Below, one piece after another: positions 2,783 to 23,247 of a stretch of DNA of 64,000 bases. The notes under the pieces were generated by a model that did no database searches, had not been told where the DNA came from, and was given only the letters and a program-made list of their open reading frames with translations. The stretch comes from Vulcanimicrobiota bacterium (lineage in GTDB: Bacteria; Vulcanimicrobiota; Xenobia; Xenobiales; JADMJV01). Every line of letters begins with the position of its first letter. Position 1 is the first letter of the stretch. A program made the translations under genes and the position numbers. The stretch covers positions 315,312-379,311 of the forward strand of contig JAHBVR010000005.1 of assembly GCA_019637395.1 (NCBI GenBank), given 5' to 3'.

Positions 2783-3469
2783 GTGGAAAAGCTGATTCGG
2801 AAGCTCAACAAAGAGTTTGCCAGACTGAAGTTCTCCGTCCCCTGGGTTTACAACCCCTGGGAGTATGCCGGCGAGGCTTACCTGGATTATTGGCGCCGCT
2901 ATGGGCAGGGCCGGAAACAACTGATGCTGCTGGGCATGAATCCGGGCCCCTGGGGTATGGCCCAGACCGGCATTCCCTTCGGGGAAGTGGAACTGGCCCG
3001 CGACTGGCTGGGCATCCGGGGACATATCGGTAAGCCCAAGAGGGAGCACCCGCAACGGCCCGTCCAGGGCTGGGAGTGCCCGCGCAGCGAGGTCAGCGGA
3101 CGCCGTCTGTGGGGCTATCTCAAAGAGAAATATCCGAACCCTGAGGACTTTTTTGCCAACGCCTACGTGGCCAATTATTGCCCGCTTGTCTTCATGGAAG
3201 AAAGCGGCCGTAACCTCACTCCTGACAAGCTGCCCAAAGCCGAACGGATCCCTCTCCTGCAGCTCTGTGACCAGTTTCTGTTGGCCCACCTCGAGCAGAT
3301 GCAGCCCAGGAAACTGGTGGGCGTGGGCAAATGGGCCGAGCAGCGCGGCCAGGAGCTGGTGGCCAAACTCGGCCTGCCTATCGAGGTCCTGAGCATTCCA
3401 CACCCCAGCCCGGCCAATCCGGGAGCCAACCGGGGCTGGGGCACGGAACTGGGGGCTTTACTCACTTAA
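2783..3469 (+). CDS. SMUG1-like uracil-DNA glycosylase
   Basis: The 228-residue product matches the SMUG1 branch of uracil-DNA glycosylases, which remove uracil and some oxidised pyrimidines from DNA to begin base-excision repair. Motif 1, GMNPGPWGMAQTG (51-63), and motif 2, HPSPANPGANRGW (207-219), are both intact; these form the uracil pocket and the active-site loop. The start is GTG at 2783, after a short AAGGA. SMUG1 was first described in animals but occurs in scattered bacteria. The CCA enzyme gene begins one base after its stop, so the two are probably co-transcribed. Confidence 0.92.
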   Translation: MEKLIRKLNKEFARLKFSVPWVYNPWEYAGEAYLDYWRRYGQGRKQLMLLGMNPGPWGMAQTGIPFGEVELARDWLGIRGHIGKPKREHPQRPVQGWECPRSEVSGRRLWGYLKEKYPNPEDFFANAYVANYCPLVFMEESGRNLTPDKLPKAERIPLLQLCDQFLLAHLEQMQPRKLVGVGKWAEQRGQELVAKLGLPIEVLSIPHPSPANPGANRGWGTELGALLT

Positions 3470-6050: not shown

Positions 6051-6634
6051 AATACTGCAGTCAATGCGCCGCTGAAATGGCTTTTCAGGAAGGCTGGCCA
6101 CGCCGTTGTCCCGGTTGCTCGCGCGAGTTCTTTAAAAATCCCACACCGGTGGCGGTGGTGGTGGTGCCGGTGGACGGGGGAATTCTGACGGTGCGCCGGG
6201 CCATTCCTCCGCAAGTGGGGCATCTGGCTCTGCCCGGCGGTTTCGTCAATTGGGGCGAGACCTGGCAGCAGGCCGCCTGCCGCGAAGTCTTTGAAGAAAC
6301 CAGCCTGGTGATTTTGCCCGAGGAGCTCTCCTTGCTGGAGTTGATCAGCGTGCCCGAGGGCAATTTATTGATTTTTTGCCGAGCCCGACCGCGCGCCCGG
6401 GATCAGCTACAGTTAGACTTCCGCAACGAGGAAGTCAGCGAGATGGTGGTGCTTTACGGACCTCAAGAGTTGGCCTTCCCGACCCACACCCGGATGCTCG
6501 GCCAGGCCTTGGGAAAATCTTCTCGCACAAAAGAGGCATCGAAAACTTGTTCGCCAACCATGGTGGAGGAAAATTCCTCAAGGAGGCAGACCGATGTTGG
6601 AGACCAGACAGGCGAGACGATTCGATTGCGATGA
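6047..6634 (+). CDS. Nudix hydrolase with N-terminal zinc ribbon
   Basis: The 195-residue protein starts with a four-Cys zinc ribbon (C4, C7, C21, C24) followed by a Nudix hydrolase domain. The Nudix box runs about 65-87 with G65, E71, R79, E80, E83 and E84 in place; the late Gly of the consensus is Ser86. Such zinc-ribbon Nudix proteins (NudC-like or ADP-ribose-type) cleave nucleoside diphosphate derivatives; the substrate is not visible. The start TTG at 6047 overlaps the CCA enzyme stop. The last 40 residues are polar and overlap the following gene by 41 bases, so the tail may be non-essential. Confidence 0.85.
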   Translation: MKYCSQCAAEMAFQEGWPRRCPGCSREFFKNPTPVAVVVVPVDGGILTVRRAIPPQVGHLALPGGFVNWGETWQQAACREVFEETSLVILPEELSLLELISVPEGNLLIFCRARPRARDQLQLDFRNEEVSEMVVLYGPQELAFPTHTRMLGQALGKSSRTKEASKTCSPTMVEENSSRRQTDVGDQTGETIRLR

Positions 6635-7283
6635 AACGGTGGACTGCGAAGTGCGGGGCCAGGTGCGCGTCGCCTTCCTGCGTGACGTCTCTCTTACCGG
6701 CGCCCGTCTTCAGGGCGCCAATCTCCCTCCCGTGGGCACTCTGCTGCGCCTCAGTCCCACCTTCAGCGAATGGCTGCCCTGCGGGCCGCGCGCCTGGGTC
6801 TACGCCCAGGTATGCTGGACCAGGGAGGGGAAAGAAGCCGGCCTGCGCTTCCTTGAACCTTCTTCAAGACTGGCCCTGAACTGGGTGGGCCGGCTCTGTC
6901 AGGGGCGCAACGAGCGCCGCAGCAGCATCCGCGTGGCCACCGAAGTCTATATGGAGATCAAGGTGCCCGGCGTGCGCCGCACCTATGAAGCCCTCAGTCT
7001 CGACCTCAGCCAGGGCGGCGTACAGGCCAAATTGCCCGATCAAGTGTTACGCGAAGGCAGCATCGCCAAAGTCAGCGTCTGTCTGCCCTGGACCGTCATC
7101 GACGCCCCCGCCCAGGTGATTCGCCAGGGAGCCGACGACCGCCCCCAGCACTCGCTGCAGTTCACCAACCTGGACAGCTACCAGGCCGACGCCCTGGGCG
7201 GCTTCCTGCGCCAGGAACTGGCCGCGCAGAAACAAGCGAAGGCGGCCGATCCGTTTCTGGCTCGCCTTTTTAATCGCGAGTAG
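6594..7283 (+). CDS. Tandem PilZ-domain protein (c-di-GMP binding)
   Basis: A 229-residue protein with two PilZ-like domains. The first has R5-x3-R9 and DVSLTG (31-36). The second has R108-x3-R112 and DLSQGG (136-141). These paired RxxxR and [D/N]xSxxG motifs are the c-di-GMP binding signature, so both domains should be able to bind the messenger. No output domain is fused, so the protein may act as an adaptor. The ATG at 6594 is supported by a strong AAGGAGG at 6580-6586, even though it lies inside the end of the Nudix gene. The target process is unknown. Confidence 0.85.
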   Translation: MLETRQARRFDCDETVDCEVRGQVRVAFLRDVSLTGARLQGANLPPVGTLLRLSPTFSEWLPCGPRAWVYAQVCWTREGKEAGLRFLEPSSRLALNWVGRLCQGRNERRSSIRVATEVYMEIKVPGVRRTYEALSLDLSQGGVQAKLPDQVLREGSIAKVSVCLPWTVIDAPAQVIRQGADDRPQHSLQFTNLDSYQADALGGFLRQELAAQKQAKAADPFLARLFNRE

Positions 7284-7341
7284 CGAGCGGGGTGCGCGAA
7301 ATCGCGCTCACATGTGCGCGAACTGAGGTGGGATCGGGGCT

Positions 7342-8880: not shown

Positions 8881-10729
8881 GCGAGGGCATTTCGGAGGCT
8901 TCGGGCAGTTCGCCTGCAGTATGTAAGTAATCGAATAGCTGGCGGGATAACTTCCCGCCCATTCCTTCTACCTGGGAGATTTCCGCCAGCGAGGCGGCCA
9001 TCAGTTTGCGCAGCGAACCGAAGTGCTTGAGCAGCGCTTGCTTGCGCCCCTCGCCAATGCCGGGAGCCTCGTCCAGAGCGGACTGCTTGAAAGCGGTTTT
9101 GCGCACGTGGCGGTGATAGGTGACGGCGAAGCGGTGGGTCTCGTCGCGCATGTGGGTGACCGTCAGCAAGGCTCGTGAAGTGCGCGCCAGAATGACCGGG
9201 TCACTGCGGCCCGGCACGAAAATCCACTCATTCTCCTTGGCCAGTCCGGCCAGCGCTACCCGGTCGCTCAGTCCCAACTCGGCCAGCACCTCCATGGCCA
9301 CGCCCAACTGCCCCTTACCGCCGTCCACGATCAGAAGTTCCGGCAGCCCGTCAAAGCTACGCCGGTCGTCGGGGGAATGGGCAAAGCGCCGCGTCAGAAC
9401 TTCGCGCATCATACGGAAATCATCGGGCGTGTCGCCGCTGCGAATGCGGAACCTCCGGTATTGATCCTTGCGCGGCAGCCCCTGTTCAAAAACCACCAGC
9501 GAACCCACCGCCTGGCGGCCCTGAAAGTTGGATATGTCGACGCATTCCATGCGCCAGGGAGCTTCGCTCAGCCCCAGCGCCTGCTGCAGCTCTTCCAGGG
9601 CCAGACGGCGCTGCTCGACGCCGCGCGAGGGGCGCAGATTCTCTTGTTCCAGCGTCTGGTGGGCGTTTTTTTGAGCCAGCTCCATCAGTTCGCGCTTGGA
9701 GCCGCGCTGGGGCAGGCGGATTTCCACCCGCATCTGCGAGAGGCTGCTCAGCCATTGGCTCAGCAACTCGCTCTCATCCGGCAGCACGCTCACCAGAATG
9801 CGCCGGGGAATATAGCTGTTCTGCTGATAATACTGCTTGAAAAAGGCCGACATCTGCTCGCCGGCTTCGCTGCCCCCCGGCGATTCCAAGAGAAAGGAGC
9901 GGTGTCCCAGCAGTTTGCCTTCACGCACCTGCAGCACCTGGGCGCAGATCAGTTCGCCGCTCGAAGCCACCGCCAGGTAGTCTTCGTTTTCGTCCCTGTC
10001 GGACACCATCTTTTGCTTTTGACCGGTTCTCTCCAGGTCCAGCAGCATATCGCGAATGCGGGCGCAACGCTCGAAATTGAGTGCTTCGGCCTCGCTCTCC
10101 ATCTCCTGGCGCAGGCGGCGCAGCAACTTATCCGAGTTGCCTTCCATGTAATCGATGGCCTGTTCCACCTGCTCCCGATAGTGAGGCGCGTCCACATAGC
10201 GGGTGCAGGGGGCGGTACACAGGCCGATGTAATAATCCAGGCAGGGCCGCTTTACTTTCTTGTCCATATCCAGCGAGCAGGTCCGGATCTGGAACATCTT
10301 TTGCAGAATGGTGACCGTGCGGCGCAAGGCCCCGGCATCGGGAAAAGGTCCAAAATACCGATTGCGCGGGTTGCGCTGGCGGCGCACCACGCGCAGGCGG
10401 GGAAATTCCTCGCCGGTGGTCACTTCCAGCAGCGGATAGCGCTTATCGTCGCGATATTTGGTGTTGAAATAGGGACGGTGTTTCTTGATCAGGTTACACT
10501 CGAGGATGAGCGCTTCCAACTCGGAGTCGACCACTACCGTATCGAAGTCTTTGATTTTGGAAACCATCCAGCGGATCTTGGGAGCATGATCGGAGGAGGG
10601 TTGAAAATAGCTGCGCACACGCTGGCGTAGCGAGGCTGATTTACCCACGTAGATGATGCGGCCTTTGGCGTCCTGCATCAGATAAACCCCCGGCTTGTCG
10701 GGGAGGAGCTTCAGTTTTTCGGCGATCAA
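8780..10729 (-). CDS. uvrC: Excinuclease ABC subunit C (UvrC)
   Basis: The 649-residue UvrC makes both incisions in nucleotide excision repair after UvrAB marks the lesion. In order it has the GIY-YIG nuclease domain (GVYLM near 14, IIYVGKS near 25), a Cys-containing segment around 150-180, a UVR region near 210-235, the RNase-H-like C-terminal nuclease domain (LLIVDGGKGQL near 465), and tandem helix-hairpin-helix motifs near 565-605. The start is TTG at 10729, directly after the TAG of the upstream S41 protease gene. The last 35 residues are low complexity and come from the stretch that overlaps the coiled-coil gene, so the C-terminus is extended beyond the usual family end. Confidence 0.95.
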   Translation of the reverse strand: MIAEKLKLLPDKPGVYLMQDAKGRIIYVGKSASLRQRVRSYFQPSSDHAPKIRWMVSKIKDFDTVVVDSELEALILECNLIKKHRPYFNTKYRDDKRYPLLEVTTGEEFPRLRVVRRQRNPRNRYFGPFPDAGALRRTVTILQKMFQIRTCSLDMDKKVKRPCLDYYIGLCTAPCTRYVDAPHYREQVEQAIDYMEGNSDKLLRRLRQEMESEAEALNFERCARIRDMLLDLERTGQKQKMVSDRDENEDYLAVASSGELICAQVLQVREGKLLGHRSFLLESPGGSEAGEQMSAFFKQYYQQNSYIPRRILVSVLPDESELLSQWLSSLSQMRVEIRLPQRGSKRELMELAQKNAHQTLEQENLRPSRGVEQRRLALEELQQALGLSEAPWRMECVDISNFQGRQAVGSLVVFEQGLPRKDQYRRFRIRSGDTPDDFRMMREVLTRRFAHSPDDRRSFDGLPELLIVDGGKGQLGVAMEVLAELGLSDRVALAGLAKENEWIFVPGRSDPVILARTSRALLTVTHMRDETHRFAVTYHRHVRKTAFKQSALDEAPGIGEGRKQALLKHFGSLRKLMAASLAEISQVEGMGGKLSRQLFDYLHTAGELPEASEMPSHGQQIEPQQEKERSRQGATPGSPGRGGSRRSSG

Positions 10730-12166
10730 CTACTTCTTCATCTGCTCCTGGAGCGTCTTGATGCCCACTTGCAGGACGCGGTCGTCCTTGTCTTTTTCCG
10801 TCACTTTCACGTTGATGTCGGCTTTGATGCCTTTGCGGTGAATGTCCTGGCCGGAGGGGGTGAGGTAATGGGCCACCGTGTATTTGAAAGCGCCGCCGTC
10901 GGCCAGATGTTCCACCTGCTGCACGCTGGCTTTGCCGAAAGTGGTCTCGCCGATCAACTTGGCGCGCTTATGGTCCTGCAGGCAACCGGCGGTGATTTCC
11001 GAAGCGCTGGCCGAGAAGCGATTGACCAGCAGGACCATCGGTCCTTCGATCTGGGCGCGACCCAGGCTGTCGTGGTCCTCGGAGCGATTGAGCCGCTGAT
11101 TGACCACCGAGACGACCCGTTCCCCGGCCGGCACGAAGTGGCTGCAAATTTCCAGCGCGGCGTTGATGTAGCCGCCTCCATTGTTGCGCAGGTCGACGAT
11201 ATAGGCTTGGGCCCCCTTCTTCTGCACCTTTTCGATTTCTTCTTCGAATTCGGTCACCGTTTCTTCACCGAAGACGTTGACTTGCAGGTAGCCGATCTTG
11301 GGAGCTACGATTTTAGAAGTGACGCTGCGTACGTGAATCATGTCGCGCTTCACGCTGACGTCAAAGGTGCGCTTTTCTTTGGGACGGTAAATCGTGAGCG
11401 CGACCATGGTGCCTTGCGGCCCGCGGATTTTATTGGCCGCCTTTTCAATATCCCAACCGTCGGTGGGCTGGCCGTCGATCTTGGCCAGCACGTCGCCGGT
11501 CTGGATGCCGGTCTTGTCGGCCGGCCCATCCGCAATCGGCTGGGAAACGGTCACGCGGTTCTTATGGTCACGGTCGAGTTCGATCATCACTCCGATGCCG
11601 CTGAAGTTGCCGCCTGACATGTGCTCTTCGAAAACGCGGAATTCGCGGGGTTCGAGCACCGAGCAGTAAGGATCCTTGAGCGCGCCCAACATGCACTTGA
11701 GAGCCAGATAGGTGAGCCGCTGGTGGTCGAATTTGCCGGCCACCTTGGGTTCGACTTTGGCGATCATGGCTTTCCAGGCCTGAGTCAGGCTGGCGCGATC
11801 TTCGATTTTCGGAGGTAGAGTGGGGAAGTCTTTGACGTCGACTTTCTGGCTGGCCAGAAATTCCTTCAAAAGCCGGAACGAACTGGCGAACAGAGCGCGG
11901 TCGTTGACTTCGTTGAGGTATTCCTGGTGCAGCAGGTCGAGCACGACGTCCAGGTTCGCCACCGTATCGATCGGCGGCCTGGGGGTTTCTTTAGGTGCCG
12001 GCGTTTCGGTGATTTCGAGAAGGCCCGGCGTGGCTTGCGAGGACACCGCAGGCGGCGAGATGGCGGGGTTGGGAAGGTACCGTTGGGAAATCAGGATCGT
12101 ACTCACGAAACCCAATCCAACCAGGGTATAGCCGCCCATCAGGACGCCCATGCGGTGAAAACTCAT
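10730..12166 (-). CDS. S41-family carboxy-terminal processing protease (CtpA-like), copy 2
   Basis: A 478-residue S41 serine protease. It has an N-terminal hydrophobic segment (about 8-27, anchor or signal), a proline-rich linker, a PDZ domain near 185-270 and the C-terminal catalytic domain. The Ser-Lys dyad is visible: SASASE at 385-390 with the nucleophile, and K412 in FGKASVQ. DLRNNGGG at about 325-332 is the family oxyanion-region motif. It should act in the periplasm or outside the inner membrane on protein C-termini. It lies 16 bases downstream of a paralogue and abuts uvrC, so it is in the middle of an operon. The substrate is unknown. Confidence 0.93.
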   Translation of the reverse strand: MSFHRMGVLMGGYTLVGLGFVSTILISQRYLPNPAISPPAVSSQATPGLLEITETPAPKETPRPPIDTVANLDVVLDLLHQEYLNEVNDRALFASSFRLLKEFLASQKVDVKDFPTLPPKIEDRASLTQAWKAMIAKVEPKVAGKFDHQRLTYLALKCMLGALKDPYCSVLEPREFRVFEEHMSGGNFSGIGVMIELDRDHKNRVTVSQPIADGPADKTGIQTGDVLAKIDGQPTDGWDIEKAANKIRGPQGTMVALTIYRPKEKRTFDVSVKRDMIHVRSVTSKIVAPKIGYLQVNVFGEETVTEFEEEIEKVQKKGAQAYIVDLRNNGGGYINAALEICSHFVPAGERVVSVVNQRLNRSEDHDSLGRAQIEGPMVLLVNRFSASASEITAGCLQDHKRAKLIGETTFGKASVQQVEHLADGGAFKYTVAHYLTPSGQDIHRKGIKADINVKVTEKDKDDRVLQVGIKTLQEQMKK

Positions 12167-12182
12167 TGCCAGACTCCGTTGT

Positions 12183-13733
12183 TTAATGCGTCAGAAAGGG
12201 CAGTTCCAGGCGCAGTTTGCGCGAGTCACCGGGCTTTTCCAGCGTGATTTCTTCAAACAGGTGGTCCTGTTCACGCACAAATTCTCGCTTGGTGACGGAA
12301 TACCCCTGAGCTTTCTGCTCCTCGAGGATTTTCAGTTCGTCTTCGACCGAAGCCACCACCATCGGCCCGGGCGCGACCGCGGCCGGCTGAGCCTTGACCT
12401 CGTTGATGGCGGTGGTCATGGCCGTCTTGAATTGATCGTCTTCGGGGGTGCCCACCTTCTGGATATTCATCGACACCTTGATGTCCGGCTCGATACCCAG
12501 CTTGTGGATGTCTTTGCCGTTGGGAGTGTGATAGTGGGCGGTGGTCACTTTCATGGCCGAACCTTCGGTCAGGGGAAAGATTTTCTGCACGCTTCCCTTA
12601 CCGAAAGTCTTGTTGCCCACCAGCTTGGCGCGCGACAGATCTTGCATGGCGCCAGCGGTGATTTCCGAGGCGCTGGCCGAGTATTCGTTGACCAACATCA
12701 CCAGCGGCTTGACGGGATGGAGATTGGGATGGCTGGGATAGGGAACTTCGGCCTGGCCGCGCTCCTGCACCGTGACCACGCGGCTGCCGGTGGTCAGGAA
12801 TTTCGAGCATACGTCCACGGCCGCGTTGATATAGCCGCCGCCGTTGTTGCGCAGGTCGAGAATGTAGGCCTGGGCGCCCTCTTCTTCCAGGGTGCGGATG
12901 GCGCTTTCCATTTCGTTGTTGGTGTTCTCGCCGAAGACCTTGAGCTTGATGTAGCCGACCTTGGTGCCGTCCTGGTCGACCAGTTTACTGTTGACGCTAC
13001 TGGTGCGAATTTCATCGCGGACGATTTCGACCCAGAAGGGTTCCTGATCGGCTCGTTTGATCAACAGTCTGACCTTGGTGCCCACATCTCCACGCAATAA
13101 GGTTTGCGCTTGAGGAATGGTGGCTGTCACGGTGGGAGTATCATTGATTTGCAAAATGACGTCACGGGAACGAAGGCCGCCGCGCATGGCGGGAGTGTCG
13201 GCCATCGGTTCAATGATCGTGAGCGCGTTGTTGTTCTTTTTGTCCAGCTCGATGTAGATGCCCAGGCCGCCGAATTTCGTTCCGTTCATAGCCTCTTTGA
13301 GCGAGGTGAACTCTTTCTTGTCCATATAGACGGTGTAGGGGTCGTCCAGGGTCTTGAGCATGCCGCGCACGGCTGCCACCTGCAGGTAGTCTTCTTTAAG
13401 CAGTTTGGGGTGCTTGGCGGCGACCTTGTAGAAGTCGGCGGTGAATTCTTTAGCCGCCTTCTCGAAGTCACCCTTGGAGTGAATCTTGGCCAGCTTCATA
13501 GCCGGTAGCTTCTTGGCTTTGATGGCCCCGTTCAGGCCTTCGACAGCGCCATCAAAGAGCTTCTCGGAAGGGGTTTTGTAGATGTATTCCGAGCTGATCA
13601 GCGCAGTCAGGTTTTTTACGAACTCCGCACCCCCCACAGCTTCGGGGCTCGGCGGAGCGGCCAGCACGCTGTGGGAGAGCAAGAGAGCGGTGGTGAGAGA
13701 GAGAACGACATACTTGGAGGGAGATGCCTGCAA
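12183..13733 (-). CDS. S41-family carboxy-terminal processing protease (CtpA-like), copy 1
   Basis: A 516-residue secreted S41 protease with a clear signal peptide (hydrophobic 8-25, VLAA cleavage region). The PDZ domain lies near 140-235, and the catalytic domain has DLRNNGGG (293-300), SASASE (352-357) and K379 in FGKGSVQ. It parallels the downstream S41 protein over most of its length, so the pair is a tandem duplication that has diverged at the N-terminus and the C-terminal tail. It is the first gene of the minus-strand operon that continues to the second protease, uvrC and the coiled-coil gene. A long C-terminal extension after about 440 has no motif I recognise. Confidence 0.93.
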   Translation of the reverse strand: MQASPSKYVVLSLTTALLLSHSVLAAPPSPEAVGGAEFVKNLTALISSEYIYKTPSEKLFDGAVEGLNGAIKAKKLPAMKLAKIHSKGDFEKAAKEFTADFYKVAAKHPKLLKEDYLQVAAVRGMLKTLDDPYTVYMDKKEFTSLKEAMNGTKFGGLGIYIELDKKNNNALTIIEPMADTPAMRGGLRSRDVILQINDTPTVTATIPQAQTLLRGDVGTKVRLLIKRADQEPFWVEIVRDEIRTSSVNSKLVDQDGTKVGYIKLKVFGENTNNEMESAIRTLEEEGAQAYILDLRNNGGGYINAAVDVCSKFLTTGSRVVTVQERGQAEVPYPSHPNLHPVKPLVMLVNEYSASASEITAGAMQDLSRAKLVGNKTFGKGSVQKIFPLTEGSAMKVTTAHYHTPNGKDIHKLGIEPDIKVSMNIQKVGTPEDDQFKTAMTTAINEVKAQPAAVAPGPMVVASVEDELKILEEQKAQGYSVTKREFVREQDHLFEEITLEKPGDSRKLRLELPFLTH

Positions 13734-20083: not shown

Positions 20084-20180
20084 GGCTGAGGTTCTCCATT
20101 AACCACCTATGCAGCCCGGGACCCCAGGTTTGTAGGAGAGATAATCCAGTGTTCCAGACTGTTCTCCAGAGTTCCCCTTG

Positions 20181-20215
20181 GACAAACAAAAAGACCGGCC
20201 TGGCAGCCGGTCTTT
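20181..20215 (-). terminator. Rho-independent terminator of the Gly-rich gene
   Basis: On the minus strand, 24 bases after the Gly-rich gene stop, a perfect 10-pair stem (AAAGACCGGC / GCCGGTCTTT, 20190-20215) with a 6-base loop is followed by a T-rich tract. It also isolates metH from upstream transcription. Confidence 0.85.
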
Positions 20216-20238
20216 CTGATTGCTAGAGGAACGAACCC

Positions 20239-20514
20239 TTAGAGAAGAGCGCGAGCGGACTCGGAGTTTTTATTCGCCGAGGCCATCTTGTCTTTCTGAA
20301 TGCCGAAAGTGATGTCGTTGATCGAGGTCATGAGTTTGGCCACGTTAGCGCGGTCATTCTCATCGGCTTTCTTCAATTCGAGCTGGGTCTGGCGCTGCGT
20401 CGAGAGGGCTTGACGCTGGTCGGTGACCCGCATTTGCTCGTCTTGAGCCGCCTGATTGAAGTTGGTAACCTGGCCGCCGCCACCACCGCCGCCACCTACT
20501 CCGCCGATTGCCAT
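20239..20514 (-). CDS. Small Gly-rich, helical protein of unknown function
   Basis: A 91-residue protein. The ATG at 20514 is chosen because a strong AGGAGG precedes it at good spacing; the longer upstream frame covers AT-rich leader and is not credible. Residues 1-14 are MAIGG followed by a run of Gly, then residues 17-91 are polar, rich in Gln, Asp, Lys and Asn, predicted to be mainly helical, ending in RALL. It has no Cys, Trp or Tyr and no signal peptide. It carries its own AT-rich upstream region, strong ribosome site and strong terminator, which suggests high, separate expression. Family unknown; a filament, rod or secreted small protein is possible but unproven. Confidence 0.7.
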   Translation of the reverse strand: MAIGGVGGGGGGGGQVTNFNQAAQDEQMRVTDQRQALSTQRQTQLELKKADENDRANVAKLMTSINDITFGIQKDKMASANKNSESARALL

Positions 20515-20641
20515 AAAATGTTTCCTCCTGATTCCTTCGTTGCTTGCATTCAGTTTTACATATGAGCAAGCCTTTGGGAGCCCTGAGATGTTAACTTTTA
20601 TGTGTTTTTGTTTCAGAAAAGTTAAAACTCTATTTAGCTGG
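20515..20641 (-). promoter_or_regulatory. AT-rich leader with 9-base inverted repeat
   Basis: This stretch is far more AT-rich than its neighbours. It holds the inverted repeat TTAACTTTT (20591-20599) and AAAAGTTAA (20617-20625), separated by 17 bases, between the kinase stop and the Gly-rich gene. It most likely contains the Gly-rich gene promoter, and the repeat may be an operator or weak hairpin. No -35/-10 pair is assigned. Confidence 0.5.
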
Positions 20642-22393
20642 TCAACATGAGGCGGACTCGGGCAGGCGCCACTGGCAGATTTTTCCATCGCCTCCGCCGC
20701 TGGCAACCAATTGTCCGGCGCTGTCGTAGGCCAGACAACGGACCCATTGTTCATGTGCTTCGCTCTGCAGCAGCAGGCGGCCCCCGTCCAGGCGAAAGGC
20801 GCGCAGGTAGCGATCGGCGCATGCCGTCAGAACCAGATTGTGCTGGGCCTGAGCCGTCCAGATCATGCCTTTGTGGCCGCGCAGACAGCGCACCTCGCGT
20901 TTTTCTTGAAGTTCCCAGGCGCGTACCGTCATGTCCGCGCAACAAGTGAGCAGACCCCCTCCCTCACGCATGAAGCGCACCCCCTGGACCCGCGAACTGT
21001 GGCCCAGCAGGCTACCCCCATAGGTGGCCTCGGGCAAGGACCAGAGATGCACCGCCTTATCGTCTCCGGCCGTGACCAGCCAGTTGCCGGCGGGGTCGAT
21101 GGCCAGACTGTTGGCCGAGCCCTGGTGGGCCGACCAGCGATTGGGCTTTTCCAGGGTGGGCCCGAGCAGACAGCATTCGCCGTTGAGCAAGCAGGCCGCC
21201 ACCAGGGGCTGGGCGGGATGAAAGGCCAGACTGTTGACTGCGGGCCCCTTGTCCAGCAGTGGAAAACCCTCGCCCTGCGGAGCGAGTGCGCTCCAGAGAC
21301 GGATCGAGCCGTCCTGAGCGCCACTCACCAGGTAGGTTCCGTCGGCGGAAAGGGCCAGACTATGAATGGGAGCCTCGTGGGCTTGCTGGCTGTGCTGTAA
21401 CTCCATCTGCGGCCAGCTCCAGCTACGCCAACAACCGTCGCGGCCGGCCGAATAGAGGCGACCGCCGGCTGAGTCCAGGCAGAGGGCGTAGACGCCGCCG
21501 CTGTGGGCTCGTTTGTGGGCCAGAGCTTCGAAGCCGGGCAGGCCGGCTGGAGCCGATTTGGGAGAGACCTCCAGACCCAGGCTGGTCAGAAAAGCCCTCA
21601 TGGAGCCGGTTCGTTGCAGAGGGTCGAGCTGCAGGCCCTGGTAAATAGCCTGGCGCAGCCTCTCGGACAGGGTTTCCAGGGGAGCCAGGAGTTCGCCCCG
21701 CAGGCGCGCGCGTGCGTCCGGGGGAGGGCCGCCGCTGGCCAGATGGTACAGGCTGGCGGCCAGCGCATAAACGTCGGCCGCCGGCGTTAGAGCCACCCGC
21801 TCATATTGTTCAGGTGGAGAATAGCCGGGCGAGACCTCTCCCTGACTCCCCCAAGTACCCTCCTGCATACGGGCGGTGCCGAAGTCCAGGATGACATAGC
21901 GGCCGTGATGGGTCAAAAAGAGGTTGTCGGGCTTCAAGTCGGAGTGGATCAATCCGGCCGCGTGCACCAGCAGCATGGCCTGGCCCACTTGTGAGGCCAG
22001 GTCGAGCATGCGATGCAGCGACATGGATCCCGCCTGTTTTAATCCGGCGCTGAGGGTAATGCCTTGCAGCAGTTCTTCCACCAGATAAGCAGTGCCGTTG
22101 GCGCGGAAATTCCCCAGCACACGGACCACTCCCGGATGATAGAAGCGTTCGAGGGTGGTTCCCTCGCGCAGAAAGCTTTCGACGCCGCGTTGAAAGGCGG
22201 GGTCGTTATCCGAGAAGATGGAGTTGCCCTGGCGGCGGCAGCCGCTGGGAAAGAACTCCTTGATGGCTACCGGCAAGCGCCAACTGCCCTGAGTGGCTGC
22301 ATAAGTGAGACTGAAGCCGCCCTGTCCGACCACTTCTCCGATTTGAAATTGACCGTCGCCAAGCAAGCTGCCCGGCGCCAGGGGCTCACGCAC
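20642..22393 (-). CDS. Ser/Thr protein kinase with C-terminal WD40 propeller
   Basis: A 583-residue Hanks-type kinase. The kinase domain (about 15-275) has a Gly-rich loop near 21-28, VAIK with K45, HSDLKPDN (150-157, Ser in place of the usual Arg of HRD) and DFG at 170-172. A WD40-type beta propeller of about seven repeats fills about 300-583. No membrane helix separates them, so the protein should be cytosolic, unlike PknB-type receptors. Lack of the HRD Arg usually means activation-loop phosphorylation is not needed. The start is GTG at 22393 after GGAAG. It lies 8 bases after the adenylate-kinase-like gene, so the two are co-transcribed. Confidence 0.92.
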   Translation of the reverse strand: MREPLAPGSLLGDGQFQIGEVVGQGGFSLTYAATQGSWRLPVAIKEFFPSGCRRQGNSIFSDNDPAFQRGVESFLREGTTLERFYHPGVVRVLGNFRANGTAYLVEELLQGITLSAGLKQAGSMSLHRMLDLASQVGQAMLLVHAAGLIHSDLKPDNLFLTHHGRYVILDFGTARMQEGTWGSQGEVSPGYSPPEQYERVALTPAADVYALAASLYHLASGGPPPDARARLRGELLAPLETLSERLRQAIYQGLQLDPLQRTGSMRAFLTSLGLEVSPKSAPAGLPGFEALAHKRAHSGGVYALCLDSAGGRLYSAGRDGCWRSWSWPQMELQHSQQAHEAPIHSLALSADGTYLVSGAQDGSIRLWSALAPQGEGFPLLDKGPAVNSLAFHPAQPLVAACLLNGECCLLGPTLEKPNRWSAHQGSANSLAIDPAGNWLVTAGDDKAVHLWSLPEATYGGSLLGHSSRVQGVRFMREGGGLLTCCADMTVRAWELQEKREVRCLRGHKGMIWTAQAQHNLVLTACADRYLRAFRLDGGRLLLQSEAHEQWVRCLAYDSAGQLVASGGGDGKICQWRLPESASC

Positions 22394-22401
22394 CTTCCGC
22401 G

Positions 22402-23151
22402 CTAGACGGCCAGCATGCGCACGGGGGCGCTATGGAAGTTGTCCACCAGGGCTTCCAGGACGTCGGCGGTGTCCTGGCGATCCTTCTCGTCATCGACCTG
22501 GAAATACGCGCCGCGCTGACGGGCGGCCTGCACGACCGGAGTGCAATCGGCGCACTTCTGCTCAGGAGTGGAGAGTTCGATGAGGCGGAGGCCTTCGAGT
22601 TCTTCCAGCAGTGCTTCCGCTTTGTGGTGTTTGAAATCTTCGGGGTAAGCGTCCAGTACCATGCCGCGCTCCTGCACGTCGGGCTGCTCCACCCGCTTGG
22701 CCACCAGATCGTAAAGCAGCAGAGCCGGGGATTGGTCGCCGCCGTCCAGGGCTTTTTGGAGATTCACTCCCAGTTCGGAGCCGCTGCTGACTTCTTGTTT
22801 GATCATGTCGCCCATGTTCAGATGGACGAGGCCCAGGTTGTGGGCGATGGTTTCCGCCTGGTCCTTCTTGGATGAATCGTGGGTGCCGAGCAGCACCACC
22901 ATCAGCGGGGAGGGATTGGCGGCGGCGGCGATGGCGATGCCGGTCTGCTTGGAAAGGCTTTCCATGTTGGGATAGCCCGAGGGCCGAGCCTGGGCGGGTT
23001 GAGCCGGAGTCGGGGCGGAGTTGAGCTGGACGCTGTCCGGGACCAGCTTATATTCTGAGTCGCCCACGTGGGCACGCGGAGCCACCGCGCCCCAGGGGTT
23101 CCCCGTGCACATCGGCTTCCTTGCGTTCAGACTGGACGAGATCGAGTTCAT
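22402..23151 (-). CDS. Degenerate adenylate-kinase-like protein
   Basis: A 249-residue protein whose residues 83-240 follow the adenylate kinase pattern: a strand, a P-loop equivalent G89-THDSSKKDQ98, GDM (114-116) in the NMP-binding region, SELG, and VLDAYPED where active enzymes have the LDGFPR motif. The P-loop keeps the Lys (K95) but replaces the flanking Gly and Thr with Ser, Lys and Asp, and the catalytic Arg residues of FPR and the LID are not seen. It is probably inactive as a kinase but may bind nucleotide. The first 80 residues are a Pro/Ala-rich linker. It shares an operon with the WD40 kinase. Confidence 0.7.
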   Translation of the reverse strand: MNSISSSLNARKPMCTGNPWGAVAPRAHVGDSEYKLVPDSVQLNSAPTPAQPAQARPSGYPNMESLSKQTGIAIAAAANPSPLMVVLLGTHDSSKKDQAETIAHNLGLVHLNMGDMIKQEVSSGSELGVNLQKALDGGDQSPALLLYDLVAKRVEQPDVQERGMVLDAYPEDFKHHKAEALLEELEGLRLIELSTPEQKCADCTPVVQAARQRGAYFQVDDEKDRQDTADVLEALVDNFHSAPVRMLAV

Positions 23152-23247
23152 CGCTCTATTACAATACCGTCCAGGCTGGCCGGATCGGTTGCCGAGTTAT
23201 GAACTCATCACCAGGCAGTCCCCCTTGGTTCCAGGAGCAGGGGGGTC

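Follow-up and report, generated by a model that had tools for sequence, protein, structure and literature searches.

An adenylate kinase (Adk)-like gene in a bacterial genome placed in Candidatus Eremiobacterota encodes, by the evidence of its sequence, a true bacterial pseudoenzyme, which is under strong purifying selection and is encoded immediately before a Ser/Thr protein kinase with a WD40 propeller, its first candidate partner. The gene lies in the window, i.e., the whole stretch of 64,000 nucleotides that was analysed, on contig 32 of this 7.66 Mb genome (G000). The comparison covered five genomes from the genus itself (g1), a single genome (G025) from a different genus of its family, and further genomes from families f2–f4 of the class. 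The initial annotation had described a degenerate Adk, a WD40 Ser/Thr kinase and a small Gly-rich protein as one cluster, and the three genes were indeed found in this order on the minus strand, with 8 bases between the first two (Table 1).

Table 1. Features of the Adk-like/kinase locus, with positions in the window and the evidence for each.
Feature	Position	Strand	Evidence
Predicted Adk-fold pseudoenzyme, 249 aa	22402..23151	-	Pfam ADK, PDB matches, model, residue loss, dN/dS
Ser/Thr protein kinase with WD40 propeller, 583 aa, GTG start	20642..22393	-	Pfam, motifs, dN/dS
Gly-rich 91-aa protein with Gly-rich N-terminus and one long predicted helix	20239..20514	-	Family search, model
Degraded Walker A, residues 88-96 (L-G-T-H-D-S-S-K-K)	22864..22890	-	Alignment with intact relatives (GPPGSGKST)
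DAYPED, residues 167-172, at the DGFPR position	22636..22653	-	Alignment
Intrinsic terminator 3' of the Gly-rich gene	20180..20221	-	-27.2 kcal/mol, z -5.07; stem and T run conserved in the genus
Conserved block TTCATAACTCGGCAACCGAT 5' of the pseudoenzyme gene, candidate promoter/operator	23184..23203	-	Alignment of five upstream regions

The Adk-like protein matches the Pfam ADK family (PF00406, 2e-14, 54.4 bits against a cut-off of 26.8) over residues 87–183, corresponding to positions 1–97 of the 151-position profile, and its residues 84–186 also match PDB sequences of adenylate kinases; the ciliary protein FAP42 is a further PDB sequence match. This Adk core is preceded by a low-confidence N-terminal extension of ~80 residues, which carries the conserved MNSI...GNPWGAVAPR, and is followed by a conserved C-terminus. 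The AlphaFold model, which was built with only four close sequences and is poor outside residues 84–186, has a mean pLDDT of 47, with block means of 58–89 in its usable part (residues ~91–180). A Foldseek search with this model returned only adenylate/UMP-CMP kinases or proteins containing them among the top 50 matches (32 matches with E ≤ 0.001), showing that the predicted model has an Adk fold in its core, in agreement with the initial annotation.

The catalytic features have been lost from this fold. At the site of the Walker A motif, GxxGxGK(G/S)T, the GPPGSGK(S/G)TQ of intact enzymes is replaced by GTHDSSKKDQ(A), in which only the first Gly and the lysine remain. The NMP arginine, located after GD[ML][LFI], varies between K, E and R among the five orthologs, and the FPR arginine has become Glu171 through the change of DG(F/Y)PR to DAYPED. 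The LID and the catalytic helix RxDDxxxxIxxRL are deleted in all five orthologs, the C-terminal strand–helix resuming at GAYFQVDD.... An alignment showed that the Walker A, YPED, LID and helix defects are common to the genus, and the damaged P-loop (GTHDSSKKDQA) and lost FPR arginine (YPED) first noticed in a single sequence are thus real in five genomes. Because the inner Gly and the Ser/Thr residues of the P-loop, the NMP arginine and the LID are lost or variable, the canonical ATP and AMP sites are not kept, and canonical catalysis is not plausible and not expected for this protein. A nucleotide-sensing role, in which a nucleotide would be bound via the remaining P-loop lysine and the adenylate level would be signalled to the kinase, is consistent with the invariance of K95 (aligned with the Walker lysine) and D167 in the genus and with the strong constraint on the Adk half of the protein. 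However, the loss of the inner P-loop glycines and Ser/Thr, the variable NMP position and the missing LID make such sensing improbable.

Purifying selection was assessed from five orthologs by the Nei–Gojobori method, which gave dN/dS ratios of 0.066–0.131 for the whole pseudoenzyme gene, 0.04–0.12 for its Adk half and 0.13–0.24 for the kinase, all approximate because dS is high. The ratio of the pseudoenzyme is therefore below that of the kinase, and it is similar to that of the neighbouring trmH. The loss of catalytic residues might also be read as the mark of a decaying pseudogene or a misassembly, but the frame is open in five genomes with dN/dS of about 0.1 and the five orthologs share their defects; this explanation is refuted by the selection test and keeps a negligible probability. 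Together with the intact relatives described below, the lost residues, LID and helix and the purifying selection strongly support the earlier claim of a pseudoenzyme. When 500 genes were ranked by codon adaptation to ribosomal genes, the Adk-like gene stood at the 93rd percentile, the Gly-rich gene at the 71st and the kinase at the 43rd, so that the label "highly expressed-looking", originally given to the Gly-rich gene, fits the Adk-like gene better. The differing codon usage of pseudoenzyme and kinase suggests that they are made at unequal levels.

A profile search found five ADK-family genes in the genome, i.e., four intact ones scoring 170–177 bits and the pseudoenzyme scoring 56, and the four intact genes constitute redundancy alongside the pseudoenzyme. 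One intact adk sits in a ribosomal-protein operon, between genes named SecY-like and map-like from their position and sequence start rather than from a profile. Nothing else in the same genome significantly matches the ~80-residue N-terminal extension, and a tag common to other proteins was rejected. The extension is recognisable (MNxI...PWxAV) on intact adenylate kinases of two other families of the same order, f2 (G029, G033, G035) and f3 (G027). In the tree, these extended intact relatives and the pseudoenzyme fall into one clade that excludes the paralogs (99% ultrafast bootstrap); the pseudoenzyme is on a long branch, and support inside the clade is weak. The f3 relative lies less than 6 kb from aat and trmH, genes that are also near the cluster here, and the kinase is absent beside it. 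Since the intact relatives share the N-terminal extension and one of them is also near aat/trmH, the sequences indicate that a working ancestor lost catalysis and gave rise to the pseudoenzyme. The position of the f3 gene suggests that the lineage probably occupied this locus while still intact, the kinase having joined later or having been lost in f3. Compared with Adk (PF00406), the pseudoenzyme retains the CORE and NMP-half fold, with similarity over residues 84–186 and an origin from an intact member, whereas it has lost Walker A, the NMP and FPR arginines, the LID and the catalytic helix and carries the 80-aa extension.

The kinase consists of a kinase domain (residues ~17–226; Pfam Pkinase, 9.7e-30) and a WD40 propeller (residues ~286–578; PF00400, 1.5e-43, five scored repeats). 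The Hanks motifs are present as GQGGFSLTY at 23, VAIKEFF at 42, HSDLKPDN at 150 and DFG at 170, intact except for HSD replacing HRD. No segment of the protein is hydrophobic enough for a membrane helix (maximum 19-residue mean 1.39), which, with the PF00400 match, bears out the earlier description of a cytosolic kinase with a WD40 propeller. The combination of a kinase domain and WD40 in one polypeptide is a known and frequent bacterial pairing (PMC5587647, PMC6113231). Relative to PkwA-type WD40 Ser/Thr kinases, the domain pairing is the same, the differences being HSD for HRD and the status of a genus-specific paralog beside a pseudo-Adk. Orthologs in the genus diverge down to 58% identity. 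Close paralogs occur in every genus genome, and distant ones (32–35% identity) in G025, G027 and G045; this family is dispersed among other neighbours, and no Adk-like neighbour was found at the paralog loci inspected. The genome has a large Ser/Thr kinase set, with 93 Pkinase (PF00069) matches in its 7.66 Mb.

Across the five genus genomes, 8, 11, 8, 2 and 24 bases separate the pseudoenzyme stop from the kinase start, and both genes are always on the same strand. Because the gap is this short in all five, one transcript is likely, and the two genes would be co-transcribed. However, gene order is equally collinear at unrelated loci in the genus, and none of the genomes searched beyond the genus has the pair, so that the conserved adjacency adds little. 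In G025, which represents the sister genus, metH lies directly next to trmH and the unit is missing. By chance, ~3% of genes would be expected to have a kinase beside them (93 kinase matches, ~6,200 genes estimated). With the pair restricted to the genus and synteny general, a functional link is plausible, and not more; the tight spacing supports the initial pairing with the kinase at the level of an operon, and the conserved neighbourhood carries little weight.

Strong constraint without plausible canonical catalysis points to binding as the most likely mode of action of the pseudoenzyme, and the kinase is the first candidate partner because it is probably made from the same transcript. Towards the kinase, the role of the pseudoenzyme would most likely be that of a substrate, an adaptor or an allosteric partner, and docking could use either the propeller of the kinase or the conserved tail GNPWGAVAPR at the N-terminus of the pseudoenzyme. 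We consider it about evenly balanced whether the kinase is the partner, either phosphorylating the pseudoenzyme or being regulated by it. A more specific proposal, offered tentatively, is that in a single genus a bacterial Adk has become a non-catalytic protein dedicated to a WD40 Ser/Thr kinase, as its regulatory subunit or its substrate-adaptor. Close behind the kinase-partner explanation, and a serious contender that falls short of an even chance, is the explanation that the pseudoenzyme is real and the kinase merely its transcriptional companion, the pseudoenzyme serving something else, e.g., the intact Adk enzymes or some abundant complex of metabolism. Service elsewhere is suggested by the high-expression codon usage of the pseudoenzyme, and the difference in codon usage from the kinase, the kinase-free f3 locus, the dispersal of the kinase family and the high synteny of the genus all agree with it. 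However, the same-strand spacing of 2–24 bases has been kept in all five genomes despite the divergence of the kinase, which speaks for the kinase as partner.

Two of the five Adk genes in the genome are beside kinases, for which the chance expectation is roughly 1% (estimated from 93 kinases and ~6,200 genes), and a recurrent Adk–kinase neighbourhood is suggestive only. The other case is an intact adk on C10 (L060:7686–8465), which is divergent from the gene of a 1196-aa Ser/Thr kinase with AAA_16 (L060:8652–12242), an arrangement kept in G043 and G037.

Adk-like domains have been described in the ciliary scaffolds FAP42, CPC1 and Hydin_ADK, which are eukaryotic multidomain proteins with a proposed nucleotide-level control (PMC9113940). 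The resemblance is that of Adk-fold domains placed inside a structural/regulatory complex; no homologous context is present here. In the part of the literature searched, no paper with both "pseudoenzyme" and "adenylate kinase" was found, nor was a bacterial Adk pseudoenzyme with extended intact relatives beside a WD40 kinase. It is rare for a pseudoenzyme derived from a metabolic kinase to have its intact relatives as well as a probable signalling partner in view, and five dead orthologs together with the extended intact relatives in f2 and f3 make the step from enzyme to partner directly testable side by side. If the partnership is true, the pseudoenzyme would represent a novel type of kinase regulator, and its intact relatives survive in sister families.

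The Gly-rich gene follows the kinase on the same strand, as initially annotated, and its real start, at 20514 (91 aa), gives a shorter frame than the mechanical ORF and has a GGAGGA ribosome site that five genomes retain. The protein has no Pfam, NCBIfam or PDB match and was modelled, from a shallow alignment, as a single helix over residues 14–90. Its family was found only in the genus, in 2–6 dispersed copies per genome (five in this one). A module in which the three genes act together as kinase, sensor and effector, as first proposed, could draw on the presence of the Gly-rich gene beside the kinase in all five genus genomes, even in G031, where ~2 kb separate it from metH. However, the survey of 18 genomes of the class found the three genes together in the five genus genomes and nowhere else, the other copies in this genome have no Adk-like or WD40-kinase neighbour, and the gene has a ribosome site of its own, a ~130-base leader and a strong genus-conserved terminator. 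The single three-gene module is accordingly very unlikely, and the effector role is not supported; the sequences place the Gly-rich gene in a different family with a terminator of its own, and they give no support for its membership in the kinase unit.

In G049, one Gly-rich copy lies ~1.3 kb from the gene of a different Ser/Thr kinase, which is on the opposite strand. Another copy (L136:5484–5729; G000:C34:117489), with counterparts in L137, L138 and L140, comes after a flagellar-type cluster running from flgB/flgC/fliE-like genes to flhA, at a locus that also has a second FliQ-like gene, a homocysteine-methyltransferase-like gene and an aminotransferase; four genomes share this order, and the leader of ~130 bases is conserved. 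The nearby flagellar export genes prompted consideration of a type III secretion needle or rod protein, which was rejected because neither a profile nor a PDB entry matched and the model shows a single helix instead of a helix-turn-helix. Partial segments of the family occur at L145:8951–9514, L147 ~3271–3387 and L146 ~9209–9295, one of which continues into other sequence (187 aa), and they point to shuffling of domains or to decay.

A motif D-x-V-x-[LV]-[STN] recurs in the low-complexity N-termini of unrelated proteins (DSVQLN, DSVRVN, DQVDLT, DEVTLS, DNVSLS), the carriers being L136:5879–6478 and 6491–7333, L068:4729–6114 and 11675–12580, and the Adk-like gene of the window, several of them near Gly-rich genes. 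A general N-terminal export tag D-x-V-x-L-S was rejected, as its enrichment at residues 20–60 in 530 genes is only mild and several matches come from loci picked for their Gly-rich copies. A scan for sigma-70 promoters gave nothing convincing. Similar TAACT..GCAAC elements lie 5' of the pseudoenzyme gene (in the conserved block of Table 1), of the Gly-rich gene (20560–20630) and of the flagellar-locus copy (L136 ~5369). TAACT...GCAAC has five matches on both strands of 253 kb, against ~1–2.4 expected, a margin that chance may explain; a shared regulator of these genes is possible.
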